A program made the translations under genes and the position numbers. From assembly GCA_020974905.1 (NCBI GenBank), contig CP087563.1:2790001-2854000 (forward strand): 64,000 nucleotides of DNA. Direction: 5' to 3'. Below the pieces are notes generated by a model. The model saw only the letters and a program-made list of their open reading frames with translations. It did not search any database and had not been told where the DNA came from. Below are positions 5,373 through 58,714 of this stretch, one piece after another; position 1 is the first letter of the stretch; the number at the start of each line of letters is the position of its first letter. This stretch comes from Planctomycetes bacterium syqfu (GTDB taxonomy: Bacteria; Planctomycetota; Phycisphaerae; Phycisphaerales; Phycisphaeraceae).

Positions 5373-5396
5373 GAAACAATTATTCCTGCTGATTCT

Positions 5397-5611: not shown

Positions 5612-5647
5612 TTGACAAATCGACTATGTGATTAAACAATCACATAG
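5612..5647 (+). promoter_or_regulatory. arsR promoter with ArsR operator
   Basis: TTGACA at 5612-5617 is followed by a perfect 10-bp inverted repeat, CTATGTGATT (5624-5633) and AATCACATAG (5638-5647), placed across the expected -10 region. The same core, TATGTGATTAAA, recurs before the permease gene. This arrangement is typical of ArsR self-repression relieved by arsenite. Confidence 0.7.
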
Positions 5648-5663
5648 ATATTGGAGATGTGTT

Positions 5664-5993: not shown

Positions 5994-6001
5994 TTTTTAT
6001 T

Positions 6002-6028
6002 TTGACAGATATGTGATTAAATCATCAC
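6002..6028 (+). promoter_or_regulatory. Second ArsR-type operator/promoter before the permease gene
   Basis: TTGACA (6002-6007) is followed by TATGTGATTAAATCATCAC (6010-6028), sharing the TATGTGATTAAA core and ATCAC arm with the arsR operator. It lies 10 bp before the permease start, so the permease operon probably has its own repressed promoter. Confidence 0.6.
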
Positions 6029-6038
6029 GGACTCAACT

Positions 6039-7448
<1,410 letters not shown>

Positions 7449-7468
7449 ACATTTTCAAGGAGATCGTC

Positions 7469-7876
7469 ATGTCCAATTCGAGTTCATGCAGTTGTGCCGG
7501 AAAGTCCGGCAATGAAAGTCAGAAGAACGTGCTGCTTTATGCCTGTTCGGGTGGTGCCAATGTCGCTGAGGCATCGGACAAGGCCTGCCGTCAATTGATG
7601 AGTGAAGGGATGGGATCGATGTTCTGTCTGGCAGGATTGGGTGCGGGCATCGAAGGCATGATTCAGCAGGCAAGCAATGCAGACCTCAATGTCGTAATCG
7701 ATGGCTGCCCAATGGACTGTGCCAAAAAGATTTTTGACAAGCTGGAACTAACCAATGTGCATTTTATACGGGCCACTGATCTTGGCTTGGAAAAAAAGCC
7801 CAAGGGCACGCGTTCGACGGATGAAGAAGTCAGTGCCATCGTCAACAACGCCCGGCAGGCGATTGCAGCAATCTGA
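7469..7876 (+). CDS. DGC-domain putative zinc-binding protein
   Basis: A 135 aa Cys-rich soluble protein. After a short Cys tail (SSCSCAGKSG) it carries CSGGANVAEASDKACR, FCLAGLGAG and DGCPMDCAKK, the conserved Cys positions of the DGC family (PF08859), thought to bind zinc or another metal. It starts at ATG 7469 behind AAGGAG, 20 bp after the permease stop, so the two are co-transcribed. Its biochemical role is unknown; the position suggests handling or sensing of thiol-binding metalloids. A longer in-frame start inside the permease gene is rejected for lack of a ribosome site. Confidence 0.75.
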   Translation: MSNSSSCSCAGKSGNESQKNVLLYACSGGANVAEASDKACRQLMSEGMGSMFCLAGLGAGIEGMIQQASNADLNVVIDGCPMDCAKKIFDKLELTNVHFIRATDLGLEKKPKGTRSTDEEVSAIVNNARQAIAAI

Positions 7877-7959
7877 TTGGCATGGGGCTAATCAATGATT
7901 AACAACCAGACTGACTCACACACCGTGAGCCGGTCATGATTGATTTGAAAGGATATGTG

Positions 7960-8196
7960 ATGACAAAACTACAAATTCTCGGCACAGGTTGCCCCAAATG
8001 TCAGCAACTGGCTCAGAACACCAAAGAAGCAGCTGAGGCACTGGGACTGGACTACGAAATCCAAAAGATCACCAGCATCACCGAGATCACCAAGTTCGGC
8101 GTGATGATGACGCCTGCCCTGGCAGTCGACGGAACAGTCAAAAGTGCTGGCAAGTTGTTAGAAGTAGAAGCGATCAAGCCCTTGATTCAAGGATAA
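7960..8196 (+). CDS. Small thioredoxin-fold protein (TM0996/MTH895 type)
   Basis: A 78 aa protein with TGCPKCQQLAQNTKEA, the CxxC active site near the N-terminus, and MMTPALAVDG carrying the cis-proline before a final GKLLEVEAIKPLI helix. This is the compact glutaredoxin-like thioredoxin family often placed with permease and arsenic genes. ATG 7960 follows GAAAGG. It sits 4 bp before the next thioredoxin-fold gene. A role in passing electrons to ArsC-like or membrane partners is inferred. Confidence 0.8.
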   Translation: MTKLQILGTGCPKCQQLAQNTKEAAEALGLDYEIQKITSITEITKFGVMMTPALAVDGTVKSAGKLLEVEAIKPLIQG

Positions 8197-8200
8197 CCGC

Positions 8201-9529
8201 GTGAATACAACCACCAAAATCATCATCGTCGCCTTGCTGTTGGTGGCAGTTGGCAGCGTGATTGCCATGAAGAAAAACGCTGCCAACGATGCGTCCCCGC
8301 AGCAGGCTGCTGCACAATCATCTGAGAGCATTCAGCCGCAATCCGCTGAAGTTGCCATCCCGCATTTGCTGGATTTAGGGGCGGGTAAATGTGTGCCTTG
8401 TCGGATGATGAAGCCGATTCTGGAAGAATTGACCAGGGAATACCAAGGTCACATGCGTGTGACGTTCATTGATGTCTGGGAGAATCCCGATGCTGGTGAA
8501 AAATACGGTATTCGCATCATTCCCACGCAGATTTTCTATGACGCACAGGGCAAAGAATTGTTTCGGCATGAGGGCTTCTATTCCAAGGAAGATATTCTTG
8601 CCAAGTGGAAAGAGCTGGGGGTGACACTCAAGCCGCAGGCAACGACACCAGCAGCATCACAACCTGCCGCGATGAACGCAACGGATCAGTTGACCGTGGC
8701 CAAGGTGCAGCCTCTATTGGCATCGGGCAATCTGTCTTCTGCCCAACTTGTGGATTTACCCGAGGGGGTGATTTTGCGTGCTGGTGCGATCACGATCAAG
8801 ACTGATGACCTGCAAGCCATGCTCTTGCGCGTGCCTGAGGCGATTCAAACCCAGATGCAGAAAAACCAGATCATGTTTCTGGAACAAGCCGCAACGGAAA
8901 AGATCATCATCAATCATGCGAAAAATGCTTTGCCCAATGATGCCGATGTAAAAACGCTTAGCGATCAGCAGATCATTAAGCGTTACTTTGATCAGATCAC
9001 CGCTGACACCAAGGTCAGCGATTCGGAGATGAAGCAGTTCTATGAATCCAATCGCAGTATGATGGGAGATGCCACGCTGGATCAGGTGCGTGGCCAGCTT
9101 CAAACCTTTCTGCTCGAACAAGCCAAGCAGAAACGTGTTGAGCAACATCTTGCCCAAGTCATGCAGCAGGCGGAGATCAGCATGGATAAGCAATGGTTTG
9201 CCATCCATGCCAAACGTGCCTTGGACAATCCGGTGGATCAGGCCCGCAGCAGTGGCAAGCCATCGATGATTGATTTTGGCGCACATGGTTGCAAGGCTTG
9301 TGACATGATGACGCCGATCCTTGAAACACTGAGTAAGAAGTACGCAGATAAGGCACAGATCATCTTTGTGCCCGTGCGCGAACAGCAATTGCTTGCTTCA
9401 CGGTATGGCATTGAAGGGATTCCCACACAGGTGTTCTTTGATGCCAATGGCAATGAAGTGTTTCGACACACGGGGTTCCTGCCTCAGGATCAAATCGAAG
9501 CCAAGCTGGCAGAACATGGAGTGCAATGA
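8201..9529 (+). CDS. Membrane-anchored double thioredoxin protein with SurA-like middle domain
   Basis: A 442 aa protein starting at GTG 8201. It has an N-terminal signal-anchor helix (6-22), a thioredoxin domain with CVPC (64-67) and cis-Pro IIPTQ (106-110), a helical middle region (about 160-335) that resembles the N-terminal chaperone part of SurA/parvulin proteins without a parvulin catalytic domain, and a second thioredoxin domain with CKAC (364-367) and GIPTQ (406-410). It probably faces the periplasm and exchanges disulfides with the CcdA-like carrier encoded 3 bp downstream, in the manner of DsbD modules split over several genes. Two thioredoxins flanking a chaperone-like linker is unusual. 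Confidence 0.72.
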   Translation: MNTTTKIIIVALLLVAVGSVIAMKKNAANDASPQQAAAQSSESIQPQSAEVAIPHLLDLGAGKCVPCRMMKPILEELTREYQGHMRVTFIDVWENPDAGEKYGIRIIPTQIFYDAQGKELFRHEGFYSKEDILAKWKELGVTLKPQATTPAASQPAAMNATDQLTVAKVQPLLASGNLSSAQLVDLPEGVILRAGAITIKTDDLQAMLLRVPEAIQTQMQKNQIMFLEQAATEKIIINHAKNALPNDADVKTLSDQQIIKRYFDQITADTKVSDSEMKQFYESNRSMMGDATLDQVRGQLQTFLLEQAKQKRVEQHLAQVMQQAEISMDKQWFAIHAKRALDNPVDQARSSGKPSMIDFGAHGCKACDMMTPILETLSKKYADKAQIIFVPVREQQLLASRYGIEGIPTQVFFDANGNEVFRHTGFLPQDQIEAKLAEHGVQ

Positions 9530-9532
9530 CGC

Positions 9533-10237
9533 ATGCAGGCATTGTTTGAATCTCTGAATCACGCGTTGTCCGGCTCGGTCGGTGTTGCTCTGATCGCTTC
9601 ATTTGCCTGGGGGATTGCCAGCATTCTGCTGAGTCCCTGTCACCTGTCGAGTGTCCCGTTGGTGGTGGCCTTCGTCAATGGGCAGGGACAGGTCAGTGGC
9701 CGCCGCGCCTTTGCTCTGGCCACGCTTTTTGCTCTGGGAATCCTGATCACGATTGCCTTGCTTGGCATCATCACCGCATCTGCCGGTCGCATTGCCGGGG
9801 ATATCGGGGCATGGGCTTACTATGTGGTTGCCATGATTTTCTTCGTGGTGGGACTGCATCTGCTGGACGTGATCCCCATGCCGTTTTCAGGCCCGTCAAA
9901 CATCGGTATCAAACGCAAAGGGATGCTGGCGGCTTTGCTGCTTGGTCTGATCTTCGGCATTGCACTTGGCCCATGCACCTTTGCCTACATGGCCCCGGTG
10001 CTGGGTGTCACCTTCAAGGTCGCAGGCCAGCAGCCGATCTTTGCAGCGATGCTGCTTCTATCCTATGGCATCGGGCATTGCCTGCTGATCGTTTTGGCAG
10101 GTTCAGCCAGTTCCTGGGTGCAACGCTATCTGAACTGGAACGAGAAAAGCAAAGCCCTGATCTGGCTGCGCCGAACATGCGGCATGCTGGTACTCGGCGG
10201 CGGACTGTGGCTGATCTACTCGGCACCCGCCGGGTAA
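9533..10237 (+). CDS. CcdA/DsbD-type transmembrane thiol electron carrier
   Basis: A 234 aa membrane protein with about six helices. The paired motifs LLSPCHLSSVPLVVAF and IALGPCTFAYMAPVLG are the two PC-containing repeats of the CcdA/DsbD beta family that carry electrons across the membrane. It begins at ATG 9533, 3 bp after the double-thioredoxin gene, and ends the first ars transcription unit. In this setting it likely moves reducing power from cytoplasm to the outer thioredoxin domains. The electron-transfer role is well established for the family; an arsenic role is inferred. Confidence 0.82.
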   Translation: MQALFESLNHALSGSVGVALIASFAWGIASILLSPCHLSSVPLVVAFVNGQGQVSGRRAFALATLFALGILITIALLGIITASAGRIAGDIGAWAYYVVAMIFFVVGLHLLDVIPMPFSGPSNIGIKRKGMLAALLLGLIFGIALGPCTFAYMAPVLGVTFKVAGQQPIFAAMLLLSYGIGHCLLIVLAGSASSWVQRYLNWNEKSKALIWLRRTCGMLVLGGGLWLIYSAPAG

Positions 10238-10293
10238 TGCCCCATCTTTGTCCGAAACTCACACAATTCAAACTTTGTGAGTCGTCTTTGTGA

Positions 10294-10338
10294 TTGACAT
10301 GGCATTTTTGCTTATTACAATTCGATATATAACGAAAT
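10294..10338 (+). promoter_or_regulatory. Promoter and ArsR operator of the second ars operon
   Basis: TTGACA (10294-10299) and TACAAT (10316-10321) are 16 bp apart. Overlapping the -10 end is ATTCGATATATAACGAAAT (10320-10338), an imperfect palindrome with TTCG/CGAA arms. It differs from the operator of the first arsR, so the second ArsR is likely its repressor. A weak hairpin at 10257-10284 precedes it. Confidence 0.65.
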
Positions 10339-10359
10339 GACGAATTTAAGGTGCGACTA

Positions 10360-10602
10360 ATGACCAAGCCCTGCTACGGAACCATGTTTCCCGATCTTGA
10401 TCGGATTGAACTCAACAAGCCATTGTGCGGTCAAGCCTTTGAAGTGACGGTGCAAAGCCACGGTATCGGGGTATCAGCACGCCAGATCAAGGTGTTGCCT
10501 GACGGGTGGGAGCAATGCACACAATGTGAACAGTACCGTAACTGCTACGACCTGAGCATGGCCAAGCTGGCCTTGCAAAACGCACTGGCCAATCGTTTGT
10601 GA
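10360..10602 (+). CDS. Small Cys-containing hypothetical protein of the ars operon
   Basis: An 80 aa soluble protein. Four of its six cysteines cluster late in QCTQCEQYRNCYDL, a CxxCxxxxxC pattern that could bind a metal or metalloid; KPCYG and KPLCG supply two more. It begins at ATG 10360 (GTG 10351 is an alternative), follows the operon promoter and ends 10 bp before arsR. I do not recognise a named family. Its place as first gene under an ArsR-type operator suggests it is induced by arsenic. Confidence 0.6.
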   Translation: MTKPCYGTMFPDLDRIELNKPLCGQAFEVTVQSHGIGVSARQIKVLPDGWEQCTQCEQYRNCYDLSMAKLALQNALANRL

Positions 10603-10612
10603 GGATCGACGA

Positions 10613-10978
10613 ATGAAGGAATTTATCGCAATCACCAAAGCACTATCAGATGAGAACCGCGTGCGGGCATTGATGGCATTGGGAGATGGGGAACTGTGTC
10701 TCTGCCAGATCATCGAAGTGTTGGGCCTGGCACCGGCAACCGTTTCCAAGCATATGTCGATCCTGTATCAGGCCGGACTCATCGAACGCCGCAAGGATGG
10801 CAAGTGGCATTACTACCGCATTGCAGGCATAGATGCATCGCCCGTCGTCAAGCAGGCTTTGAAGTGGTCACTCAAAGCATTGGAAAACGAAAAAATCATT
10901 GTGGCTGACGCCAAAACATCATGTTGTGTCCGGGATAAAGACCGGGAGGAAGTATCCGCATGTTACAGCAAAAACTAA
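10613..10978 (+). CDS. arsR: ArsR family arsenic-responsive repressor (second copy)
   Basis: A 121 aa winged-helix protein with [25 protein letters not shown], containing the ELCxC metal box at the start of the DNA-recognition region, and a C-terminal tail rich in Cys ([20 protein letters not shown]), which differs from the first ArsR and may give a separate metalloid site. It follows the small Cys protein by 10 bp and overlaps the next gene by 19 bp. It probably binds the palindrome at 10320-10338. Confidence 0.88.
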
Positions 10979-11406
10979 AAGTCTTGTTCCTGTGTACCGG
11001 CAACTCATGTCGCAGTCAGATGGCTGAAGGTTGGGCACGTTATCTCAAAGGTGATGTGATCGACGCCTACTCCGCTGGAATCGAAAAACATGGCCTCAAC
11101 CCCAATGCGGTGAAAGTCATGGCCGAAGCGGGTGTGGACATCAGCAAGCATTACAGCAAAACCCACAATGAACTGACCGACGTTATTTTCGACTATGTGG
11201 TCACGGTCTGTGGTCATGCCAATGAAACCTGTCCCATGTTCCCCGGCAAGGCCAAAGTGATCCACGTGGGCTTTGACGATCCACCCAAACTGGCAGCCAA
11301 CGAAACCGATCCTGAAAAAGCCTTGGGGCATTACCGGCGCGTCCGCGATGAAATCCGAGACTTTATCCAAACGTTACCTGATGCACTAGCAAGTCAAAAA
11401 CACTGA
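10960..11406 (+). CDS. arsC: Arsenate reductase, low-molecular-weight phosphatase type
   Basis: A 148 aa protein of the thioredoxin-coupled ArsC family, which reduces arsenate to arsenite in the cytoplasm. It shows the P-loop CTGNSCRS (Cys12 nucleophile to Arg18) and a redox pair in [11 protein letters not shown] (Cys84 and Cys91), matching the Cys10/Cys82/Cys89 cascade of plasmid pI258 ArsC. The C-terminal [14 protein letters not shown] helix is also typical. It overlaps arsR by 19 bp. All residues needed for a full catalytic cycle are present, unlike many phosphatase-only relatives. Confidence 0.9.
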
Positions 11407-11424
11407 AAACCAAGGAGATGCACG

Positions 11425-11868
11425 ATGCCCCGTAAACTGTCCGTCCTCTTTGTCTGTTCACACAATTCCGCTCGAAGCCAGATGGCTGAGGGCTGGTTAC
11501 GTCACTTGGCTGGCGACGATCTTGATGTCTACAGTGCAGGTGTCAATCCCGGTACGCTCAATCCACTGGCCGTGCGTGCCATGAATGAAGTCGGCGTGAA
11601 CATCGCTGATCACAAGGCAGAAGGTGTGGATACCTATCTTGGCAAAATCATCGTGGACTATCTTGTCATCGTCTGCGACAAAGCCTCCCAGACCTGTCCG
11701 CGTGTATGGCCTGGCCTGCGCGAACGCATGTTCTGGCCGTTTGATGATCCTTCCTCTGCCCAAGGCAGCGACGAAGAAAAACTGGAAGTCTTCAGACGTG
11801 TACGCGATGAGATCAAAGCCAAAATAGAAAACTGGCTCATTGAAGTGCAACAAACCATGACCCGATAA
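11425..11868 (+). CDS. ArsC-like low-molecular-weight phosphatase, second copy
   Basis: A 147 aa paralogue with P-loop CSHNSARS (Cys11 to Arg17), a VIVCDKASQTCP redox pair, and FWPFDDPSSAQGSDEEKLEVFRRVRDEI, a region commonly seen in arsenate-reductase-like proteins. It lies 18 bp after arsC behind AAGGAG. Possible roles are a second arsenate reductase with a different electron donor or a related oxyanion reductase. The redox cysteines argue for reductase rather than tyrosine phosphatase activity. Confidence 0.82.
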   Translation: MPRKLSVLFVCSHNSARSQMAEGWLRHLAGDDLDVYSAGVNPGTLNPLAVRAMNEVGVNIADHKAEGVDTYLGKIIVDYLVIVCDKASQTCPRVWPGLRERMFWPFDDPSSAQGSDEEKLEVFRRVRDEIKAKIENWLIEVQQTMTR

Positions 11869-11881
11869 GGACGCTGCCGCA

Positions 11882-12349
11882 TTGCCCAATATTCCATCCA
11901 TCCTGTTCCTCTGCACAGCCAACTCCGCACGCAGTCAAATGGCGGAAGGATACCTTAAATCCAGGCTTGCCAGATTGGTGAATGTTCAAAGCGCTGGCAT
12001 GCGTCCCAAACCCATTCACCCGTTGACCATTCAAGTCATGGAGGAAATCGGACTGGATATCAAAGGGCAACACAGTAAAGCACTTTTAGACATTGACCCG
12101 AACCATCGCTTTACCTATGTGATTACAGTCTGCGATGCAGCAGAAAGTGAATGTCCCAAAAGTTTCGCACCATCAGCGGTGAAACACGCGTGGTCATTCC
12201 CTGACCCGGTACGAAACGATGGTGATGAAAAAACGTTGCTGGAAGGTTTTCGGCAAGTTCGGGATCAGATCATCAAACAGATTGATCAGTGGGTGCGGGA
12301 GGAAATCCCTGAACACTGGCGTAAACCAAAAGGAAGTAAAACCCCATGA
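11882..12349 (+). CDS. ArsC-like low-molecular-weight phosphatase, third copy
   Basis: A 155 aa paralogue starting at TTG 11882 with AAGGA about 11 bases upstream. It carries P-loop CTANSARS (Cys11 to Arg17) and [13 protein letters not shown] with two redox cysteines, then [26 protein letters not shown]. This is the subfamily often placed directly before or fused to Acr3 permeases. Its stop overlaps the Acr3 start (ATGA), so the two are translationally coupled, which suggests that arsenite is handed to the exporter. Confidence 0.82.
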
Positions 12350-13485
12350 AAAACAGTCTTTCCAAGAGTCTTGGCTTTTTAGATCGTTATCTGACGGTCT
12401 GGATTTTCACCGCAATGGCTATCGGTGTCGGGCTTGGTTATTTCGTGCCCCAGGCAGCCAGCAGCTTAAGTGATATGAAATTCTCACCCGAAAGCACCAC
12501 CAGCATTCCCATTGCCCTTGGCCTGATTCTGATGATGTACCCGCCGTTGGCCAAGGTGCGTTATGAAGAATTGCCTGATGTCTTTCGCAACGTGAAGGTA
12601 TTGGGACTATCCTTGATTCAAAACTGGATCATCGGCCCGATTCTGATGACCGCATTGGCCATCGGCTTTTTCGGATTCCTGGCTCCATCCATGCTCGGAG
12701 AAAATCCGATCTGGACGCAATACATGGTCGGGCTGATCATGATTGGTCTGGCTCGCTGCATTGCGATGGTCATCGTCTGGAATGAGCTGGCCAAGGGTGA
12801 CAATGAATACTGTGCTGGACTGGTTGCTTTTAACAGCATTTTCCAGATCGTGTTTTACAGTATCTATGCGTGGGTTTTTGTCACGTGGCTGCCACCAATC
12901 CTCGGACTTAAAGGCAGCACGGTGGATATCACCATGAGTGAAATTGCCATCAGCGTGCTGGTTTATCTGGGCATTCCTTTTGCCGCCGGGATGATCACAC
13001 GTCTGGTACTGGTCAAAGCCAAGGGACGCGACTGGTATGAAAAAGTCTTGATCCCCAAGATTTCACCGATCACGCTCATTGCACTTCTCTTTACCATTGT
13101 GGTGATGTTCGCCCTGCAAGGTCAGCGTATCATTGCCCGCCCGTGGGATGTGCTGCTCATTGCCGTGCCGTTGCTGATTTACTTTGTGGTGATGTTCGTG
13201 GTCAGCTTCATCATGGGTCGCAAGGTCGGCGCGGATTACTCCAAGACCGCCACGCTGAGTTTCACTGCGGCAAGCAATAATTTCGAGTTGGCCATCGCCG
13301 TTGCCGTCGCCGTGTTTGGCATTGAATCCGGTGCAGCATTTGCCGCCGTCATCGGCCCGTTGGTGGAAGTGCCGGTACTGATTGCTTTGGTGGGTGTCTC
13401 GCTCAAACTCCAACGCAAATGGTTTGCATCACCGGATACCACGCCGATGGCCAAGCCTGATGCCGGTTGTCCCAATACCATTTGA
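12346..13485 (+). CDS. acr3: Arsenite efflux transporter, Acr3 family
   Basis: A 379 aa, ten-helix membrane protein of the BART superfamily. Signatures are [20 protein letters not shown], the essential Cys138 in [13 protein letters not shown] (fourth helix) and Glu in [16 protein letters not shown] (ninth helix). Acr3 exports arsenite using the proton gradient. Its ATG overlaps the preceding ArsC-like gene and arsM follows 30 bp later. Length and conserved residues are complete. Confidence 0.92.
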
Positions 13486-39450: not shown

Positions 39451-39849
39451 TTAAATATTGAGAATGGTCGAACGCAGCGAACAGTATCGCTGCAAGTCAG
39501 GTGGATGATGATCACCATGATAGTCAACGATGTTCACCCCCATGGGAGCCCATGGCTGCGAAGCAATGGTTATCGTCTCAAATGCACTTGTCAACACATC
39601 ATGCAATGGATTAGCGGCACGCTCTGAACGAAAAGTCAAAATAGGCACAACCAAATCAACGCACGATTCACTTAATGGCTTTTGGCCACATGCATCAACT
39701 GAACATTGGGGGGATGTATGAAGCGGTTTCAGTGCTGGCTGATCATGATGACAAAGACACAGTACCTGACCTGCACTTGCATGCAGTACTGCCAGTAGCA
39801 ATAACATGACAACAGTCACGTGACATATTGGTGTTCGCTTCCGATGCAC
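39451..39849 (-). CDS. Secreted Cys/His-rich hypothetical protein, first gene of second RND unit
   Basis: A 132 aa protein starting at GTG 39849, with signal sequence (about 1-27, ending HASAG) and a mature part with LCLCHHDQ, CSVDACGQ and SCVDL, then DYHGDHHPPD and RYCSLRS. Its design and position mirror the protein at 14942-15367 in the cus operon, but sequence similarity is low by eye. A promoter at 39856-39884 places the transcript start at about the GTG, suggesting a leaderless message. Metal binding is inferred. Confidence 0.6.
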   Translation of the reverse strand: MHRKRTPICHVTVVMLLLLAVLHASAGQVLCLCHHDQPALKPLHTSPQCSVDACGQKPLSESCVDLVVPILTFRSERAANPLHDVLTSAFETITIASQPWAPMGVNIVDYHGDHHPPDLQRYCSLRSTILNI

Positions 39850-39855
39850 AACTTA

Positions 39856-39884
39856 ACAATATAAAACTGCTTACCCAACGTCAA
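39856..39884 (-). promoter_or_regulatory. Sigma70-type promoter of the second RND unit
   Basis: On the minus strand TTGACG (39884-39879) and TATTGT (39861-39856) are 17 bp apart. No ECF-type element is visible here. The remaining gap to 40052 is AT-rich without other structure. Confidence 0.6.
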
Positions 39885-40052
39885 TCTAGAGGAGACAATA
39901 AACACATCTTAATACCAATTCATATGAAAATACCCAAGCCAACATACAACGTCATTTATGACACATTCATGGTTGAATATTGGCTATCACTATTCCTGAA
40001 TTTAGAAAAATTCACATTGATAGTCGCCTCAAGCGTCATGATGTATGGGGTA

Positions 40053-41477
40053 TCATTCAATAACAACTGAATCAAACCTCTTACTAAAATCCGGCAACGC
40101 ATTGACCGCCCCATTGACGTCCAACAAGGCCGGATCGGTGTAGAAATTCGTCGTCAACTCAATCCGGCTATGCCGCATGGCAGCTTGGGCAACTCGGGGA
40201 TGGACACCAGCGACGGCCAGGTGGGTACCAAAGGTGGTACGGAGGGCATGAATATCGACGACTCGGTCGCGCGCGTCATTCTTTGCAATCCCTGCTACCT
40301 GGCAGTCAGCATCGAAAACCCGGATGCCGGGTGGATTGTCGAACATAAGTGCCTTGTATCCCTGTTTGCTGCGATGTTCCAGGTGCTGCCTGATCTTTTC
40401 GACGACATCGGCTCTCAATGGCAACCGACTTTCCTTACCGCTCTTGGACTGGTTGGCGTAGAGTTCAAAGTACGGCGCGGGTTGAGCATCCAGGAACAAC
40501 TGGCCAAGCGTCAGGCTGCGCAGTTCCTTGTGGCGTAGGCCAGTGGAGACGGCCATCAGATAGAACAGCGCGCGTTCCCGGCCAAGGCGTTCGAGTTTCT
40601 TGAGATGGGGTTGCTTGAGCTTGGTTAAACCACGTTCGTAACAGACGTCCAGATTCTGCTGCGTGATGGATTCGTATTTCCAGGTTTGTCTGCCTTTGCG
40701 TTTGGACTTGGGGATTTCCATTTTGCCTCTGCCCCATTCGGCAATGGGACGCATCGTTGCAGCCCGGAGCAGGTTGCCGACTTCCTCAATCGTCAAGGCT
40801 CTGCGGATGTGGCGACGGTCACTGGCACGATCTGCCTTCTGCACCATCGTCAGCGGGTTGGCGACGATGCGTTGTTCTCTGACTAACCAGTTGCAGAACG
40901 CGTGCATCGAGATAACGTATTCGTTCCGCGTTGCTGCGGCCATGTCTCTGTCTTCAGCTTTGCTTAACCAACGGTTCATCGCATCGCTGGTGATGTCAGC
41001 TAATTTCTTGATCTTCAAATCTTCAACCAAACGGTTGAGTCGACATTTCACGTTCTTGCGGTAGTTCTTCGAGACTTTGCGCCCACGGACGCGTTTGATC
41101 TTCAGATGCTCAAGATATTTTTCAATGTGATCGGTAATGGCTGCTTTGCTGTGTTCAGCCACTTCGATCTCTTGCGGCGTGATGAAACCAGCACGAATCT
41201 TCTCCTGTTCGGCCAAGACATCGGAGAGAACGCGTTGGGCAGCCTGTTCATCGCGACAGCCGGTGGAGATGCGTTTGTCGTTGCCAGCATGATCGGTATA
41301 CCTGGCATACCAGACTTCCGAGACGTACATCATGCGTTTGCCGTCTTCAGCCAGTGGTGCAGTTTTGAGCTTGCCGTGTTTCGTGCGCCATTGTACGACG
41401 GGTTTATTGCGTCGTGTAACGATTTCCGCGCCGTCGGGCATGGGGATCGGGTAGGTTTTCTTATACAGGTTGGCCAT
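40053..41477 (-). CDS. Tyrosine recombinase/integrase of the prophage
   Basis: A 474 aa integrase. The N-terminal part has an AP2-like/SAM-like DNA-binding arrangement (RYTDHAGNDKRISTGCRDEQAAQRVL; AITDHIEKYLEHLK), and the catalytic domain has STGLRHKELRSL (Arg), HALRTTFGTH (His410, Arg413), RHSRIELTTNFYTD (His436, nucleophile Tyr446). It integrates and, with the small excisionase-like protein upstream, excises the element. Its last 50 codons occur as broken copies at 14511 and 33308. The first bases beyond its 3' end mark the likely left edge of the prophage. Confidence 0.92.
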   Translation of the reverse strand: MANLYKKTYPIPMPDGAEIVTRRNKPVVQWRTKHGKLKTAPLAEDGKRMMYVSEVWYARYTDHAGNDKRISTGCRDEQAAQRVLSDVLAEQEKIRAGFITPQEIEVAEHSKAAITDHIEKYLEHLKIKRVRGRKVSKNYRKNVKCRLNRLVEDLKIKKLADITSDAMNRWLSKAEDRDMAAATRNEYVISMHAFCNWLVREQRIVANPLTMVQKADRASDRRHIRRALTIEEVGNLLRAATMRPIAEWGRGKMEIPKSKRKGRQTWKYESITQQNLDVCYERGLTKLKQPHLKKLERLGRERALFYLMAVSTGLRHKELRSLTLGQLFLDAQPAPYFELYANQSKSGKESRLPLRADVVEKIRQHLEHRSKQGYKALMFDNPPGIRVFDADCQVAGIAKNDARDRVVDIHALRTTFGTHLAVAGVHPRVAQAAMRHSRIELTTNFYTDPALLDVNGAVNALPDFSKRFDSVVIE

Positions 41478-50918: not shown

Positions 50919-52958
50919 TTAGGCTTCGCCTTTGAATTTCACCGCACCGCGATGGTCCTGTTCACGAACACCGAAGTCGATAAAGCCGCGGAATTGTACG
51001 CCGAGTGTTGAAAAATCTGCGTCGGTTTTTTCGACGGTGGGACGATCCACGCCGTTGAGGAACGCGACCTCGATAGCCGACAAGCGATTGGGATCAGACA
51101 GCAGATACCACGCCTTGTTCGACGCATTGGCAAAACTGGTGTTGGAAAGGTAGACGCTGGACACGACATCGAATTTTCCGGCATGCGGATTGGTCGACGG
51201 CTTGGGTTTGTTGGTCGTGGTGGTCTCGTTGAGCTGAAGGCTCTTCATAAGCATTTCAGCAGCCACCTTCAGGCCCGGCGGCACCAACAGCAGCGACGGC
51301 ATGATGCCAAGGGGTTTGCCATTGGGCTTGACCTGCTGAGCAAAGAGGACTTCGGCAGCAGTGAGCCCGTCGATGGACAGCGCGGTATCGGCACCTTCAC
51401 TGTAGTTGTTGTGATCCACGTGGAAGAAGGCTTTACCATCAGCCTGAGTGGGATTGCGCAACCACAAGGCCCACACGGCTTCGGCAATGGCTTCAGCAGC
51501 GCCCATGCCGATCTGACGCGGGATATCAGTGAACGCACCGAGGTCATCGTTGATGATCATCTGGCGGGTGAGCGCGAACATGATGCCATGGGTATCGGCT
51601 TTCTGCCCGAACTGCTGTTCATCGAGTTGGCCGTGCTTGATTTCGCCATCAGGACCGACCTGCTGGAACTTGAACGAACCGGTCATGCGGTAACGCGTGT
51701 GTTCCTTGAAATCGTTGACACTGGCAATCTTGGCGATGCGCCGCCAGGCATCTTCGACGTAGTTGTAGCCCTCCAGCAGCATCTTGTTGGCGATATTGCT
51801 CAAAACACCCGGCAGCGACGCACTGCTGAAGGCAGCCTGCAACCAGCCGGTGGCATCACGACGGAACCGGGGAAGCTGCTGGCCACAGGCCATTTCACAG
51901 AACTCCTGCACACCGATCCCGCGCAGCTTATCGGCAGCTTCGAGCACCGGTTCGGCATACAGCGCCTGCACCCGACTGCTGGGCAAGCCACTGGCCATGA
52001 GCGCGACGGCTTCAAACACTTGGGGATTGTTGGGACGTAGAGCCCCTGAACTTTGCATCGCCATCGGCACCTGCGGGCGTGACGCGCGGAGGACGTGCAG
52101 TTCGGTCTTGGTCACATCCCAACCTTCCTCGATCGCCTGGGCTTCGATGGCCGGATGTTTGCCTTCGCAGGTGCTTCGGATGGCTTGGATGCGACGGGTT
52201 TCCTCAGCCATCTGCTTGCGCATCTGCATCATCGGGTTCTGCTGTTCCGGGGTGTCAGGGGTCGGTGCATCCGAGACATCCTGCGTTGCACGCGCGGCGA
52301 TGGCGGCAGGACTCGCGGTCGGCGTGGTCGAAGGTGTGGCCGGTTTGGGATCAGCGATGGTGGTTTGATTTCCGGGGCCGGGGGTTGCGGTTTCATGCAT
52401 ATGGGGTTGCTCCTTGCTGTTGGCTGCGATGCGGGCAGACGTAGACGAGTCTGCCCCGTTATCGACAAATGAGATTTCTTTGAGTGTTGCTTTGCGGACG
52501 ACGTGGATCGGTCCGTCGAAGGTTCGACCATTGACAGTGACGTTCTGACCGTTGGGGATGAACTGGGCATCGATGACGGCGGCACCGATGCTGGCCTGCC
52601 AGGGGAAACCGTTCTGGCCACTGCGAATCACATCACGCGCCCAACTGGTATCGCGGCTAACCAAGCCCTCGGCAATGAGGGAACCATTTTCCACCACGAC
52701 GCGCTGCGTGTGGCCGACGCCTTGACGCGAACTGTGATCCAGCCGAACCGGGATATCCTGGCGGTCGATGGCTAGACCTTCGAGGTCCACCACGACGGGA
52801 TGCGGAAACCCTTCAATACGCATCAGGCCACCGGTATAAGCAACCATGCGGAACTGTGGGACAGTTTTCTCTTTGTCACCGGTGGCTTCGATGATCAATG
52901 GGCAGGTGAACGACAGTTGGTCAGGCAGTTGTTGGGTTGGCGACTGTGTCATCGTCAT
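50919..52958 (-). CDS. Prohead protease-major capsid protein fusion
   Basis: A 679 aa polyprotein. The N-terminal 180 residues are a U35/S78-like prohead protease with IPVRLDHSS (His75) and FPWQASIGA (Ser123). A Pro/Thr/Ala linker (about 190-240) and a helical delta-like region follow. From about 300 is an HK97-type major capsid protein (KLRGIGVQEFCEMACG; RRIAKIASVNDFKEHTRYRMTG; GAAEAIAEAVWALWLRNP). The protease is expected to free itself and trim the scaffold. It overlaps the portal gene by 38 bp. Confidence 0.85.
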   Translation of the reverse strand: MTMTQSPTQQLPDQLSFTCPLIIEATGDKEKTVPQFRMVAYTGGLMRIEGFPHPVVVDLEGLAIDRQDIPVRLDHSSRQGVGHTQRVVVENGSLIAEGLVSRDTSWARDVIRSGQNGFPWQASIGAAVIDAQFIPNGQNVTVNGRTFDGPIHVVRKATLKEISFVDNGADSSTSARIAANSKEQPHMHETATPGPGNQTTIADPKPATPSTTPTASPAAIAARATQDVSDAPTPDTPEQQNPMMQMRKQMAEETRRIQAIRSTCEGKHPAIEAQAIEEGWDVTKTELHVLRASRPQVPMAMQSSGALRPNNPQVFEAVALMASGLPSSRVQALYAEPVLEAADKLRGIGVQEFCEMACGQQLPRFRRDATGWLQAAFSSASLPGVLSNIANKMLLEGYNYVEDAWRRIAKIASVNDFKEHTRYRMTGSFKFQQVGPDGEIKHGQLDEQQFGQKADTHGIMFALTRQMIINDDLGAFTDIPRQIGMGAAEAIAEAVWALWLRNPTQADGKAFFHVDHNNYSEGADTALSIDGLTAAEVLFAQQVKPNGKPLGIMPSLLLVPPGLKVAAEMLMKSLQLNETTTTNKPKPSTNPHAGKFDVVSSVYLSNTSFANASNKAWYLLSDPNRLSAIEVAFLNGVDRPTVEKTDADFSTLGVQFRGFIDFGVREQDHRGAVKFKGEA

Positions 52959-54423
52959 GTACGTTGGTCTCCTGAGAATTTGAAGATGAAGAAGAAGGTT
53001 GAACAGGCTGACTCTCCGAAACGGTCAGCCCAAGTGTTTGCATGAGTCGGGTTTCCTTGGCGCGCTGGCGAAGTTCGGTTTCCCAGTCCTTACCCTGACG
53101 TGCATATTCAGCGGCCAATGTGGTGGTGTGACTACCTAAACGTTTGGCCTGAGCGTTGGCCTCCTTGGCCGGGTCCACATGCTCGGTTCCATCAAAGAAC
53201 CACCCCTTGTTGAGTCGAACAGGCCGCAAGCCACGCAGAATGGAAAACTCCGGTGTCAGCATGGCCTCACGTATCCAGGCATTGAAGATTTGATCCAGCA
53301 CAATCTCAGCCAGATTCGCCTGCTCCACACGAATGGACTTGTAATAAGTCTGATGGTCAAGCCGCCCAGACGCATAGTTGTAGCCTGACGAGTTGCAGGC
53401 CGCGATGTTGTACGGGAGGTTCAGGCAACGCGCGATCTCATTGAGAATCTCGCGCTTGAATTCGGCATACGTGGTGGCCGGTTGCTGCGAATCGATCTGC
53501 CCCAGTCGCCAACCATCAGGCAGCACCGTGGCCATGCGTTTTTCCAGATTGACGATGTCCATCGGATCAAGCGGTTGTGCTTCACCATTGGCTGGTGAAT
53601 CGGTGTACAACACGGCAGCAAAATCGGCAGCGGTTTCGGCGGCGGCGATAACGGCCAGGGTGTAACGGCGAAGCTGAGCAAACAAAGGCAACGCGGGTGT
53701 GATCTCCGGAATACCGCGATGCTGTTCGGGCCGATCAGAGCGGAACCAGTGGATTACTGAGTTGGCAGGCACTTCGTCGTACTGCGACATCCACGTTGAG
53801 TAATTGCCCATGCTGCCAGGGTGCTGACGTAGAATCGAGTAAAACTGTGGGCTGCCGAATGAGTCCAAGATCACACCGTCAACATCATTACGTGACGGCA
53901 ACATGACTGTTGATGGAGATGTGATGCGGTCGGCTTCGATGAGTTGAAGATCAAGAGCAACCGGTGAATCGACATTGGGATTGAAATTCAAAACACCAAA
54001 CGCTTCACCGTCTGTGCTCTTGGCCATGCGCATGGTTCGGAGCTTGGCAGCCAGGTTGACGGCCTTGCTCCACTGGGCAAACGCATCTTCAATCTGGCGG
54101 TTGAGCGTGTCGTTGCTGGTAAGCAATTGCAGACGCGGGCCAGTCCCGATGCAGTCGTTGGCCATGGTCAGCACAATGCCCTTGGCATAACTGTTGTTGG
54201 CCACTTCATACCGGGCACGCTCACGCAGTTTTTTGCGGATGTCAGCAGACGCTGCACAATCCGCTGACATCGCATCGGCCATGACCCAGTGCCGGGCATT
54301 CTCAGCCGTGGTCTGCGCTGCGTCGTAACGCGCCCGCACCACGTTGGCCACCGGCACGCTACGCATCTGCTGTTGGCGTTGCGTCTGCGGTTTGGATTTT
54401 TTGAACCAATTCAGAAGTTGCAT
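52921..54423 (-). CDS. Phage portal protein, lambda family
   Basis: A 500 aa portal. VANNSYAKGIVLTMANDCIGTGPRLQL, FAQWSKAVNLAAKLRTMRMAKSTDGEAFGVLNFNPN and LQLIEADRITSP are characteristic of lambda-type portals; MLPDGWRLGQID and IARCLNLPYNIAACNSSGYNYASGRLDHQTYYKSI lie in the clip/wing part. It forms the dodecameric ring through which the terminase pumps DNA. It starts at ATG 54423, one base into the small gene before it. Confidence 0.9.
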   Translation of the reverse strand: MQLLNWFKKSKPQTQRQQQMRSVPVANVVRARYDAAQTTAENARHWVMADAMSADCAASADIRKKLRERARYEVANNSYAKGIVLTMANDCIGTGPRLQLLTSNDTLNRQIEDAFAQWSKAVNLAAKLRTMRMAKSTDGEAFGVLNFNPNVDSPVALDLQLIEADRITSPSTVMLPSRNDVDGVILDSFGSPQFYSILRQHPGSMGNYSTWMSQYDEVPANSVIHWFRSDRPEQHRGIPEITPALPLFAQLRRYTLAVIAAAETAADFAAVLYTDSPANGEAQPLDPMDIVNLEKRMATVLPDGWRLGQIDSQQPATTYAEFKREILNEIARCLNLPYNIAACNSSGYNYASGRLDHQTYYKSIRVEQANLAEIVLDQIFNAWIREAMLTPEFSILRGLRPVRLNKGWFFDGTEHVDPAKEANAQAKRLGSHTTTLAAEYARQGKDWETELRQRAKETRLMQTLGLTVSESQPVQPSSSSSNSQETNVHDDDTVANPTTA

Positions 54424-54859: not shown

Positions 54860-54967
54860 ATGGGAAACAGCAGCACATCAAATAAGCCCCAAACAACATC
54901 CAAGCCACCAACAGGGAACACGGGAACCAAGGGAATGGGGAACGGGAACAAGCCAAAGGGCAAATAG
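54860..54967 (+). CDS. 35-aa Gly/Asn/Thr/Lys-rich small protein of a two-gene module
   Basis: ATG 54860 with GGAGAG 7 bases upstream opens a 35-codon frame rich in Thr, Pro, Gly, Asn and Lys with no predicted helix. It ends one base into the start of the membrane-protein gene, so both are translated together. The strand is opposite to all neighbouring structural genes. An AT-rich TAAAAT-containing region precedes it. Low-complexity small proteins of this type are easily missed; existence is supported by the ribosome site and coupling. Confidence 0.55.
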   Translation: MGNSSTSNKPQTTSKPPTGNTGTKGMGNGNKPKGK

Positions 54968-55356
54968 TGAAAAACGAAGAACTGTGGAAACAATATGACG
55001 CCTATACGACACTGGTGTCAGAAAACTGTCGAAAGCTTGCATTTTGTGCCGCAGCAATTGATTGGGTGTTCAGGACCGGACAAAGTCAATTCCCTAACCC
55101 AATATGGATTTCACTTCTGTACCTAATTGGCTTTTTTATCTTGGATGTCATGCAATACCTTGTATCTGCGTTTTGTCTTAGATTCTGGATTTACCATGAA
55201 GAAGGTAAACAGTGGAAGGAAACGCAAAGCATTGATGGCGAATACAACAAACCGAAATGGATTGATAGACCGGCCTTTACTTTCTTCATAGCTAAAATCA
55301 TCTGTCTTGTTTTGACATACATCTTTATTTTCATACACATATGTAAAATGGCATAA
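54967..55356 (+). CDS. Small membrane protein, accessory (moron) gene of the prophage
   Basis: A 129 aa protein from GTG 54967: cytoplasmic start (NEELWKQYDAYTTLVSENCRKLAFCAAAIDWVF), two clear membrane helices (WISLLYLIGFFILDVMQYLVSAF and FFIAKIICLVLTYIFIFIHI) and a polar stretch between them. The region is more AT-rich than the flanking virion genes and convergent to the terminase gene (34 bp apart). I have seen similar WKQY...proteins in other bacteria, but no named function. Superinfection exclusion or defence is a fair guess. Confidence 0.65.
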   Translation: MKNEELWKQYDAYTTLVSENCRKLAFCAAAIDWVFRTGQSQFPNPIWISLLYLIGFFILDVMQYLVSAFCLRFWIYHEEGKQWKETQSIDGEYNKPKWIDRPAFTFFIAKIICLVLTYIFIFIHICKMA

Positions 55357-55390: not shown

Positions 55391-58300
55391 TCATCGTCTC
55401 TGCTGCAAATCGGAAAGCTTCATGCGAGGACGCGATTGCACACTGCGCGACTCGACCCCTGGAAGTGAGACACCTTGAATCGACGCGCCGACCGCGCATC
55501 CCACCAGGCAATCCAGCCAATGATTGTCCGGTCGCGTGGCACGGAGTTTCCACTCATCGACCGTGCGACCTTGTGCCATCGACTTGATGCGGTACTCGGA
55601 TGTCAGGTGATCAGCCAGCATGCGATGGGCTTTGTCATCGCGTCCAAAGAGTGACAGACAACTCGGATCACCCATGGCCACGCTGAGCCGGGCATGCACG
55701 AAGGTCTTCCAGTAATTGGTATCGATCAAAGCATGGCGTACCTGGCGTTTACCCACCGTGTTGGGAATGCGCCAGTGCAATCCAACACGATCACCACGCT
55801 TACGTTTGTATTCGCTGAAGGGAATACTCGACGCGCCGACATATCGCCCGTGACTGGGTAACAGCAATGCTGCATGCTGGCTCTGCCGACAGAATTGATA
55901 CACCACATCAGTGGACTGCCCCCAGTTGGCATCGATCAGGCATCGGTCGATACGCATTTCCGCGCCATCGTCCCTGTGATACGTTGCAGTTAGTTTTTCA
56001 GCGGTGAGTATGTCCAGCCCCGCATAGATCTGCCCTTCGAGGCCTGCGCCAGGCGCAGCACGACTGATTGTGGATCGGATGTCACGTAAGGTGTAATAGG
56101 CTCGTTTCTGTTCTGGCCAGGTGCCGTAGTCCACAATGTAGCCCGTAAAATTTTCCTCCCAGGCGCATAGCATCCAGAACAGAACTTTCTGCTGCACGTC
56201 GATGAACATGGTCAGGTGGTTGCATGCTTGGGGGATCACATTGCGGGGGTGGCCATTGGTTTTAGAGGCAATGGCATCGGCGGCCAACATCTCCTCACCC
56301 ACAGATTCAATAATCGGTTCGTTCTGGTATTCCGCAAAGAAAGCCGCTTCGTCACGTAGCCGCAGGTTCATCGCATGTTGCAAGGCTGATAGTTCGTCTT
56401 CATTGAAACGCTCCGGCCAGGCGACAATGCTGCCAGCGTCCATCGCTTCTCTGTTATCGCGATAAAACTCGGTGGCCTGCGATCCATCACCGTCGTTCCG
56501 CAAACTGTCGGCACGAATCTCGGCATACTTAGCCCAGAGCTTCTCCGCATTGGCATCGGGGAAGGAGTAGATCATCTTCGTCCGTTCACCTTGCCATTCC
56601 GGATGTTTATCGCGGTCGAGGATATTGTCAGCCATGTCAGCAGGACGGATCACCGTGCAAGCCATCAGCCCTGCGATCTTCTTACCCGGCCCAGCCATGC
56701 CCAATACATCACCAGCCAGGATCGCTTCACGTCGTTGACTCTGCGACGGTGACCATGCCGACTCGGTGGTTTGTGGGTCGTCGACCAACACCAGTTGCGG
56801 ACGCACCACCTGACCATCGGCGCGGGCATAGTTCTGGCCGCGAATATCACTTCCCTTCATGCCGCTCGATGAGATGACGATGCCCGACGACAGGCTGCCT
56901 TCAATTACCGGCAATACAACACGGTCCGATGACCAGTCGATGCGCGTGGGTTCACCTTTGTATTTTTGGCCTTTTTGCCGGTTGGTAATTCGCTCAAGGC
57001 AGCGAATGGGATATGTCACCTCCGGAAAATCCTCATGCAATAGCGGATTGGTCTCCAACCAGATTTTGATGTTCTCCAGCAGGTCACGAGCGCGTTCAGC
57101 ACTGGCTGCGATCAAGCAGACAAACGGTGATGCACCGATCAATGCCGCCCATAACACAGCGGTTTGGCACAAAACGGTGTTGTGCGTGGGGACCATTTTG
57201 CGCCCGGCCAGGTAAAGATGCGATGGAGAATCCACCTGGATGCACCTGACCGGCACCGACTCGGTTGGTGTGATCGAAACAATGCGACGCGATGCAGACA
57301 AGGGGCATGTCTTGGGAACCGGACGTAACCTCTCCTGCTTACGCTTGAGCCGAAACACCTCGATATTTTTATGAACCGTAAAATGAAATCGGTGATACGG
57401 TCCCAAGCGTTTGCCATTGAGCTGGACATATTTTACGCCGCGCCCGTATTTGATGCCTAAGGTACTGAGCAGTTCACCAAAGCCATCAGCCAGCTTCGAA
57501 TATTTGATAATGATCTCACAAGCCCCTTTTTTACTGACATGGCCATCCGTATCCATCATGCCCTGCAATAAATCCAGACGCTGCTCATGTCCGGCGCGAA
57601 GGTACATGGCCGGAATATGCTTGTTCTGCAAAAGATTCAACTGGCGAAGCCTGCCCTGAAATGATGTTTTGTTGCGATAGGTGCGAGTCATCCAGCCGGT
57701 GCAGGTATGGCTCTCTTCGTCCACTACCAGGTCTCGCAGCATTTCGCCTGACCAGCGGATCTGATCACAGATTTCCTTGGCATCCCACTGGGCCAGCGTT
57801 ACAGAAGCCCTGCGGCATGTGCCATCGCCCAACCACACACCCAAGGCATACGGATCAATGATGAGATTCTCATTGAATACCTGCAGCGGTTTGGCAAGCG
57901 GAATGCGGTAACGCTTTTCAGATCGGCCCCGCTTGTTGGGTAGGTCCACCCGATCTGCCATGTACTCGGTGGTAAGTGTCAGTGGATTTTTTCGACTGTA
58001 CCGATCATTCACCGTCCAGAGATGTTCTGCATCACAGTCAATTTCCTCACCATCACTGAACTTAACACGGTAACACGGATGGTCATGCATCACCTCGGTG
58101 GCATGGGTCACCCGACACATTCGTCCCTGCTCATCGAACAGGGTGTCACCGACTTTGACATCACCCATGGTGGTCCAACCACTAGGTGTAGCCAACGGTG
58201 TATCTAGTGCCAGGGCTTTGCCACTTCCGCGAGGCATGGCCATTGCAAACAAGCCACCGGTACGTACGGCCTTTTCAATTTTTGAAATGACCGTCCTGTG

Positions 58301-58714
58301 GTCTGCTGACCAGGGTAAATAGAACACTTCGGCAAAATACGTCTCACAGAATGCTCGGAACGATGCGATGCACCGGGCCTTGCGATCTGGATCAACGACT
58401 GCTGGAATTTCACCGATGTCTTGAGCTGATCGAACCTGTTCTGCTGCACGTTCAGCCTTGCGAGCTTTCTGCTCTTCATAACTCAATGGACCTGACTTAG
58501 GCTTGGCATATTCCAACGTCAACCAGGCGGCATACCGAAACAGATCCACTGTCTGCGGATTGGCCGGATCGCTGATGCTGTAACCGGCGCGGTTGCGATG
58601 ACGACGTAGTTGGAACTCAGTCAGTGAATCAGCGTTTGGCAAATCAACCGCATTAACGATTCGCAACAAGTCGGCTGGTCGGAGTTGGCGTGGATTGAAT
58701 GACTTTTTACTCAT
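55391..58714 (-). CDS. Terminase large subunit containing a class 3 intein
   Basis: The 1107 aa precursor has extein parts 1-166 and 513-1107 and an intein at 167-512. The mature terminase has Walker A PRGSGKTVL formed across the splice, Walker B region RPQLVLVDDPQT, and a C-terminal nuclease part (LTMFIDVQQKVLFWMLCAWEE; IDANWGQSTDVVYQF; DNHWLDCLVG). It cuts and packages DNA into the prohead. The intein splits the ATP-binding loop, so packaging depends on splicing. The gene overlaps the small gene upstream by 8 bp. Mature size about 761 aa. Confidence 0.9.
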   Translation of the reverse strand: MSKKSFNPRQLRPADLLRIVNAVDLPNADSLTEFQLRRHRNRAGYSISDPANPQTVDLFRYAAWLTLEYAKPKSGPLSYEEQKARKAERAAEQVRSAQDIGEIPAVVDPDRKARCIASFRAFCETYFAEVFYLPWSADHRTVISKIEKAVRTGGLFAMAMPRGSGKALALDTPLATPSGWTTMGDVKVGDTLFDEQGRMCRVTHATEVMHDHPCYRVKFSDGEEIDCDAEHLWTVNDRYSRKNPLTLTTEYMADRVDLPNKRGRSEKRYRIPLAKPLQVFNENLIIDPYALGVWLGDGTCRRASVTLAQWDAKEICDQIRWSGEMLRDLVVDEESHTCTGWMTRTYRNKTSFQGRLRQLNLLQNKHIPAMYLRAGHEQRLDLLQGMMDTDGHVSKKGACEIIIKYSKLADGFGELLSTLGIKYGRGVKYVQLNGKRLGPYHRFHFTVHKNIEVFRLKRKQERLRPVPKTCPLSASRRIVSITPTESVPVRCIQVDSPSHLYLAGRKMVPTHNTVLCQTAVLWAALIGASPFVCLIAASAERARDLLENIKIWLETNPLLHEDFPEVTYPIRCLERITNRQKGQKYKGEPTRIDWSSDRVVLPVIEGSLSSGIVISSSGMKGSDIRGQNYARADGQVVRPQLVLVDDPQTTESAWSPSQSQRREAILAGDVLGMAGPGKKIAGLMACTVIRPADMADNILDRDKHPEWQGERTKMIYSFPDANAEKLWAKYAEIRADSLRNDGDGSQATEFYRDNREAMDAGSIVAWPERFNEDELSALQHAMNLRLRDEAAFFAEYQNEPIIESVGEEMLAADAIASKTNGHPRNVIPQACNHLTMFIDVQQKVLFWMLCAWEENFTGYIVDYGTWPEQKRAYYTLRDIRSTISRAAPGAGLEGQIYAGLDILTAEKLTATYHRDDGAEMRIDRCLIDANWGQSTDVVYQFCRQSQHAALLLPSHGRYVGASSIPFSEYKRKRGDRVGLHWRIPNTVGKRQVRHALIDTNYWKTFVHARLSVAMGDPSCLSLFGRDDKAHRMLADHLTSEYRIKSMAQGRTVDEWKLRATRPDNHWLDCLVGCAVGASIQGVSLPGVESRSVQSRPRMKLSDLQQRR
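57179..58216 (-). other. Class 3 intein with LAGLIDADG-type endonuclease in terminase
   Basis: Intein residues 167-512 (346 aa). Starts with Ala (ALALDTPLATPSGWTTMGDVKVGD) and ends VPTHN before Thr513. The class 3 W-C-T triad is present: Trp233 in CDAEHLWTV, Cys491 in VPVRCIQVDS, Thr510 in MVPTHN. A DOD homing endonuclease lies between, with LGVWLGDGT (291-299) and LLQGMMDTDGHV (382-393). In class 3 inteins the block F Cys makes the first branched ester instead of residue 1. Confidence 0.9.

Follow-up and report, generated by a model that had tools for sequence, protein, structure and literature searches.

Class 3 inteins are recognised by a triplet (WCT) made up of a Trp in block B, a Cys in block F and a Thr in block G, according to PMC5050341, and the idea that they come from phages is put forward in PMC7664689. 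Three described systems come closest to the one studied here. The class 3 DnaB inteins of Mycobacterium chimaera and M. smegmatis (PDB 6rix and 6bs8) are chains of 139-145 residues without an endonuclease, and sit in a replicative helicase. The mycobacteriophage inteins TerL1-a to -e interrupt the terminase ATPase domain, with site a separating the Lys of the P-loop from its Thr, and PMC5050341 counts TerL1-c, -d and -e as class 3. Finally, the homing-cycle model, as set out in PMC3229294, concerns empty (X), endonuclease-bearing (Z) and decayed (Y) alleles in populations of organisms. Here we describe a 346-residue insert in the terminase large-subunit gene of a prophage of Planctomycetes bacterium syqfu. 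The gene lies in a stretch of 64,000 nucleotides, called the window below, which corresponds to bases 2790001-2854000 of a genome assembled as one contig of 7,376,598 bases.

In comparison with the two DnaB inteins, the insert presents the same Ala1, WCT triplet, His65, terminal His-Asn and fold, with 52-55% identity over the splicing domain, yet it carries an endonuclease and resides in a terminase. In comparison with the TerL1 inteins, which have terminase_1-type hosts and about 36% intein identity, its host is of the gpA type, in a polylysogen that holds three allele states. Our reading, to which we give a probability of roughly 0.85, is that a class 3 intein with a LAGLIDADG endonuclease splits the P-loop of a prophage terminase, with predicted splicing, cleavage and homing that would be gated by late-gene expression. 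It would belong to a population of twelve prophages in which the site is empty in eight, full in two and occupied by an endonuclease-less intein in two. The allele series, and not the intein itself, is the unexpected and more interesting part.

The intein and its terminase

The terminase gene is an open reading frame (ORF) of 1107 amino acids (aa) with no internal stops. The insert covers precursor residues 167 (Ala) to 512 (Asn), read from position 58216 down to 57179, with GSGK on its N side and Thr513 on its C side. The Walker A motif is thereby split between Lys and Thr, and GSGKT is reconstituted across the extein junction. The Pfam model GpA_nuclease matches precursor residues 808-1083 with 84.8 bits (cut-off 22.5), which makes the terminase gpA-type; no separate ATPase model matched. 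In the intein numbering used from here on, Ala1, Trp67, Cys325, Thr344 and Asn346 are precursor residues 167, 233, 491, 510 and 512. The features of the gene are listed below; the border between intein residues 119 and 120 is our own choice, and was used in the comparison of substitution rates between domains.

55391..58714, minus strand: terminase large subunit precursor, gpA-type, intein-split (ORF of 1107 aa; Pfam GpA_nuclease)
58217..58714, minus strand: N-extein, residues 1-166, ending in PRGSGK (adjoins the C-extein directly in eight sister genes)
57179..58216, minus strand: class 3 intein, 346 aa (motifs, PDB search, alignment, structure model)
57860..58216, minus strand: N part of the splicing (HINT) domain, residues 1-119, blocks A and B (PDB search, structure comparison)
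58016..58018, minus strand: Trp67 codon, WCT motif (sequence and alignment)
57302..57859, minus strand: LAGLIDADG homing endonuclease domain, residues 120-305 (absent from both mini-inteins; structure comparison)
57821..57847, minus strand: endonuclease motif 1, ALGVWLGDG, residues 124-132 (alignment of 40 inteins)
57542..57571, minus strand: endonuclease motif 2, LLQGMMDTDG, residues 216-225 (alignment of 40 inteins)
57179..57301, minus strand: C part of the splicing domain, residues 306-346, blocks F and G (PDB search, sister genes)
57242..57244, minus strand: Cys325 codon, block F nucleophile, WCT motif (sequence and alignment)
57185..57187, minus strand: Thr344 codon, WCT motif (sequence and alignment)
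57176..57178, minus strand: Thr+1 codon, first C-extein residue and Thr of Walker A (sequence)
55394..57178, minus strand: C-extein, residues 513-1107 (sequence, sister genes)

Residue 1 of the intein is Ala, and thus offers no Cys or Ser nucleophile; the intein ends in His345-Asn346 and is followed by Thr at +1. Trp67, Cys325 and Thr344 fall on the corresponding residues of class 3 inteins with solved structures, and neither an alignment of 12 inteins nor one of 40 shows any variation at these three positions. His65, which PMC7664689 pairs with the block F Cys of the M. chimaera intein, is likewise invariant among the 40. When the intein was searched with phmmer against all PDB chains, the top three distinct sequences were class 3 DnaB inteins of M. 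chimaera and M. smegmatis, with E values of 8.5e-32 to 4.1e-31. They were followed by gp41-1 re-engineered with the WCT motif (6riz, E 1.5e-4, its changes being taken from the entry title), by PI-PfuI in the endonuclease part (E 0.0031) and by the unmodified class 1 gp41-1 (6qaz, E 0.0045). Given the best of these matches, and given that eight sister genes lack exactly this segment, the insert is not a product of chance.

An AlphaFold2 model of the intein built from 40 sequences yielded a predicted local distance difference test score (pLDDT) of 95.1 and a predicted template-modelling score (pTM) of 0.93. Its splicing domain superposes on that of the class 3 intein MchDnaB1 at 1.8 A over 130 residues, with 55% identity and a Z score of 22.0, compared with a Z score of 18.1 and 24% identity for unmodified gp41-1. 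The splicing domain is hence nearer to class 3 than to class 1. Over the whole length the ranking runs the other way, with class 1 inteins that carry an endonuclease at the top (PI-SceI, Z 27.2, 16% identity); this is due to the splicing and endonuclease domains being both in common with PI-SceI. Every testable feature of the sequence and the model supports the assignment to class 3. Class 1 and class 2 were considered and are excluded by Ala1, the full WCT triplet and the nearest relatives, while an insertion that does not splice is disfavoured by the exact empty sites, the intact splicing residues and the low rate of nonsynonymous differences per site (pN).

Among the 40 aligned inteins, Gly130, Asp131, Asp222 and Gly225 of the endonuclease motifs are invariant and Asp224 is present in at least 90%. 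We take Asp131 and Asp224 to be the catalytic acids of the LAGLIDADG motifs. The modelled domain matches I-Tsp061I over residues 114-306 with a Z score of 14.1, and Pfam LAGLIDADG_3 finds the intein with an E value of 0.001 but with 19.7 bits, which is under its cut-off of 22.5. By its two motifs and its predicted fold, the domain is a LAGLIDADG homing endonuclease.

These results agree in most points with a preliminary description made from the letters of the window, which had proposed a class 3 intein inserted exactly after PRGSGK, with Ala1, Trp233, Cys491, Thr510, Asn512 and Thr+1 (precursor numbering) and two DOD endonuclease motifs. The insertion point stands, all the named residues are in place, and the two motifs are those at residues 124-132 and 216-225. 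That description had named best matches to class 1, or a catalytic Cys or Trp aligned elsewhere, as grounds for giving up the class; for the splicing domain neither was found. Its coordinates, 55391-58714, are correct for the terminase gene, yet they give the whole gene, and the intein proper is 57179-58216.

Allele states in one genome

The genome holds 12 terminase copies whose matched parts show 83-100% identity with the window's C-extein, and each of the twelve has counterparts of the window's portal and capsid genes nearby, within the 20-kb stretch taken around it. At the intein site, two copies are full, two have a mini-intein and eight are empty. The full copies (346 residues, 95% identical) are that of the window and one 83 kb away. 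The mini-inteins, of 159 residues each, have kept the Trp, Cys, Thr, His and Asn and have lost the endonuclease. In the eight empty copies the N and C halves are directly contiguous; six of these genes are intact and two are frameshifted elsewhere, so that the frame is open in 10 of the 12 copies. Empty, active-looking and endonuclease-less alleles thus coexist in one genome, the endonuclease activity being a prediction.

Searching with the C-extein over 41 genomes, the own one included, gave matches in 17. Both halves of the gene were matched in 20 of the 26 loci from relatives (L076-L101), and none of these 20 has the intein: the halves are exactly contiguous in 19 and separated by a 12-nt alignment gap in one. 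The other six loci match in the C-extein only.

The three states found here are the same as those of the homing-cycle model, which, in PMC3229294, deals with populations of organisms, whereas here they share a single genome. No account of three allele states in one genome was found in listings of open-licence papers, of which few were read.

Probable movement of the intein and its alternatives

Divergence was expressed as synonymous differences per site (pS), and differences between intein and exteins were tested by 5000 codon shuffles. For the two full copies, pS is 0.323 in the intein, against 0.642 in the N-extein and 0.582 in the C-extein; none of the 5000 shuffles reached this difference, and every 346-codon stretch of the C-extein stands at 0.57 or more. 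When full copies are compared with minis, the intein presents a pS of 0.40-0.46 and the exteins 0.56-0.75. Given that the intein pS (0.32) is about half of the extein pS (0.58-0.64), the intein has probably moved between phage lineages after their divergence. Constraint on silent sites was considered as a source of the low intein pS and is excluded, since the two full inteins differ from those in a Phycisphaerae metagenome-assembled genome (MAG; L124) and a Planctomycetaceae MAG (L126) by a pS of 0.67-0.92 in the four regions tested.

In a C-extein tree of 32 rows, built without the two broken copies and the loci with short matches, occupied copies are mixed with empty ones, with at least six state changes. 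In the splicing-domain tree, the four inteins of the genome form one group (95/87), inside which the minis are paired (99/96), with the full inteins of L124 and L126 outside. Given that the minis are nested with full inteins while those of L124 and L126 lie outside, endonuclease loss is, on this tree, the derived state in the minis. For the full pair, pN is 0.025 in the endonuclease and 0.021 in the splicing domain at equal pS, and these similarly low values suggest that both domains are kept by selection. With both motifs intact and a pN close to that of the splicing domain, the endonuclease is likely the agent of the movement.

Several results weigh against this reading. In the full pair, pS is 0.40 in the last 30 codons of the N-extein and 0.52 in the first 60 of the intein, so there is no sharp step at the N edge and the start of the intein looks as old as the exteins. 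For the mini pair, the pS difference taken over the complete intein is weak, being reached in 187 of 5000 shuffles, and the first 60 intein codons have a pS of 0.54, while that of the N-extein is 0.46 over all codons, 0.25 over the last 60 and 0.14 over the last 30; this low stretch reaching into the N-extein would fit both co-conversion and plain recombination. Along the gene, the pS of the full pair revealed no clear co-conversion tract. The prophages are moreover mosaic: the N-extein of copy T5791 is 92.4% identical to that of T2931, and its C-extein is closest to that of T3709. Furthermore, when the own genome is compared with the two MAG terminases, the intein and the C-extein show similar identities (73 vs 75% and 72 vs 74%).

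Because the terminases are mosaic and the edge of the younger stretch does not coincide with that of the intein on the N side, where the step is unsharp in both pairs, ordinary phage recombination is a serious rival. The intein would then have spread by modular exchange, with the endonuclease playing no role, and the lack of a clear co-conversion tract in the full pair is in line with this. However, intact endonuclease motifs and a pN as low as that of the splicing domain are hard to explain without use, and the divergence of the full pair jumps abruptly at the C-side edge, from a pS of 0.17 in the last 60 intein codons to 0.63 in the first 30 codons of the C-extein. We give this explanation a real, if minor, chance.

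In the proposed course of splicing, Cys325, aided by Trp67, His65 and Thr344, would attack the Lys166-Ala1 bond to form a branched thioester, Thr+1 would then accept the N-extein, and Asn346 would cyclise, whereupon the halves would join, restoring GSGKT and with it an active packaging ATPase. In homing, terminase alleles that lack the intein would be cut by the endonuclease at the P-loop codons and would acquire the intein during repair. Terminase is a late gene in tailed phages, and for this reason the endonuclease is probably absent in the lysogen, and would be made only on prophage induction or phage infection. Late expression of this kind would explain why eight empty alleles stay uncut on a chromosome that also carries intact-looking endonucleases.

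The survival of the empty alleles could also be explained by an endonuclease that is active in lysogens too, with the eight alleles shielded by changes in the cut site. Over 40 nt, the empty sites do differ from that of the window by 5 to 14 nt. Nevertheless, the empty copies T1075, T3185 and T3077 differ by only 4 or 5 of 40 nt from the second full copy (T2764), as does T3348, by 5, from that of the window (T2847), and the two full sites are themselves 9 apart. Given these distances, sequence divergence alone is not an obvious shield, and we consider such shielding unlikely.

It is more doubtful still that the intein was ancestral to all these terminases and was precisely lost many times. The parallel identities of intein and C-extein between the own genome and the two MAGs are what common descent would leave. 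Against it, the full inteins are far less synonymously diverged than their exteins, full and mini copies differ in the same direction (the mini pair showing this weakly), and many precise deletions would be needed, as the contiguous halves in the relatives indicate. Finally, we think it most improbable that the prophages and their intein are dead remnants, neither spliced nor used, since, despite two frameshifted copies in twelve, ten frames are open, extein pN is 0.017-0.069 at a pS of 0.43-0.75 among the four intein-bearing copies, and T1075 has long exact matches in other species (see below).

Returning to homing, the polylysogen might form a closed homing population, in which the endonuclease of one induced prophage converts co-resident terminases, endonuclease-less inteins are resistant, and lysogenic silence spares the empty targets, so that no state is fixed. 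We offer this idea tentatively.

Prophage context, relatives and meaning

The preliminary description had also placed the terminase in a prophage, which is borne out by the integrase, portal, capsid and tape measure genes around it. Three of the neighbouring features are as follows.

52921..54423, minus strand: portal protein of the window prophage (homologues beside all 12 close terminase copies)
50919..52958, minus strand: head protease and major capsid fusion (homologues beside all 12 close terminase copies)
40053..41477, minus strand: integrase near the left end of the prophage (near where DNA homology to the sister prophages ends)

DNA homology to the window prophage ends at 40083-40088 for six of the 11 sisters and starts only at about 41.9 kb for four others. 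For the ORF at 54967-55356 (plus strand), which lies between terminase and portal, tblastn at 1e-10 found no counterpart in the 20-kb stretches surrounding the other 11 copies. A thirteenth, distant terminase (L071, 344072-345796) is 39% identical, with a 695-aa frame, and only a weak capsid match (27%) was found near it among the window's neighbouring genes.

Seven of the 12 copies lie between 2.68 and 3.19 Mb. A 29-mer resembling a tRNA 3' end has 13 exact copies in 2.585-3.218 Mb, within a repeated stretch that lies between prophages at window positions 3199-3672 and at 12 other places, with none for the reversed control pattern; one further copy, with one mismatch, is at 6.43 Mb. Given this clustering and the exact 29-mers, the region from 2.585 to 3.218 Mb looks like a string of elements integrated serially at a tRNA end. 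In the window, ARAGORN found no tRNA and Rfam gave no match at gathering score, and positions 2901-4000 and 39701-40400 have no common repeat of at least 13 bases.

The empty prophage T1075 (L068, 1064000-1083900) shows 100% identity with contigs of two other species of the genus, along 4785 nt in one and 2356 nt in the other (L078, L096), whereas same-genus matches of at least 300 nt to window positions 658-13485 (12.8 kb, including the end of a neighbouring element) are 69-91% identical; a few repeats of 66-91 nt in this stretch match at 100%. This difference speaks for recent travel of this phage.

A separate insert lies about 9 kb from the second full-intein terminase, in a gene that reads as a helicase from its sequence (L042, 2772413-2776273). 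It interrupts Walker A (PTG^C...HHN^SGKT) and, with Cys at residue 1 and no WCT, is class 1 like; HHNSGK ends like this one also occur in L214 and L216.

As to relatives of the intein, 78 of the 80 genome-contig relatives retained, out of at least 512 confirmed matches, have the Trp, Cys, Thr, His and Asn; one has WCT with Cys replacing His, and one leaves its contig before block G. On viral contigs, Trp, Cys and Thr are all present in 29 of 35 relatives; two lack the N part and have Cys and Thr, and in four the match ends before block F, with the Trp seen in two of these. WCT is present in 16 of the 18 phage loci fetched, out of 747 matching phage records, and three of them (L108, L112 and L116, the last from JeTaime) carry it at GK^A...N^T. 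Isolated phages gave 104 records that match the C-extein, of which not one spans 80% of it; identity is 28.4% in the first-listed.

Comparing one locus per MAG, the inteins of L124 and L126 are 72 and 73% identical to that of the window and that of a Lentisphaeria MAG (L125) 50%; all three have the complete WCT, the same site and homologous terminases. Genome G178, which is listed in the same class as the window's genome, has an intein of which 301 nt recur letter for letter in L124, and this kinship would place the host of the window prophage in Phycisphaerae. At an E value of 0.001, the intein matched 5 of 392 genomes in a phylum sample and 16 of 397 in a class sample, with the own genome counted in both and several matching loci cut off or matching without the full WCT being shown.

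Some relatives differ at residue 1. The intein in the terminase of Acidovorax phage ACF1 (L109) has the full WCT plus a Cys at the expected residue 1 (TGKC^LDV), possibly a mixture of class 1 and class 3, and Pro takes this place in L127, L130, L131, L132 and L137. A second, remoter group of WCT inteins occurs in genomes of the same taxonomic class (L206, L207, L208, L211 and L212), with starts of the type AQPLDA, about 28-33% identity and sites GK^A...N^T/S; three are in ARPSMGK contexts, DnaB-like by eye.

The same pair of intein and terminase in other planctomycete genomes excludes a unique or first planctomycete case. Given that class 3 inteins are known in phage terminase P-loops, including those of mycobacteriophages described in PMC5050341, and that 72-73% identical ones exist in two planctomycete MAGs, the intein is ordinary as an object. 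The observation of the preliminary description, its class and its prophage terminase therefore hold, yet its suggestion that the range of class 3 inteins is extended is weak, given the mycobacteriophage terminases, L108, L112 and L116, and the planctomycete L124 and L126. The intein itself is one more case among known class 3 terminase inteins, and any extension of range is modest.

What the genome adds is the series. Whether empty, active and decayed homing alleles succeed one another by fixation or coexist is a standing question, as put in PMC3229294. A single strain with twelve alleles, of which two have intact-looking endonucleases, two are minis and eight are empty, would make the homing cycle testable in one culture. 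Across its 12 prophages, one bacterium displays several stages of the life of an intein side by side: empty, filled and with a shortened insert.

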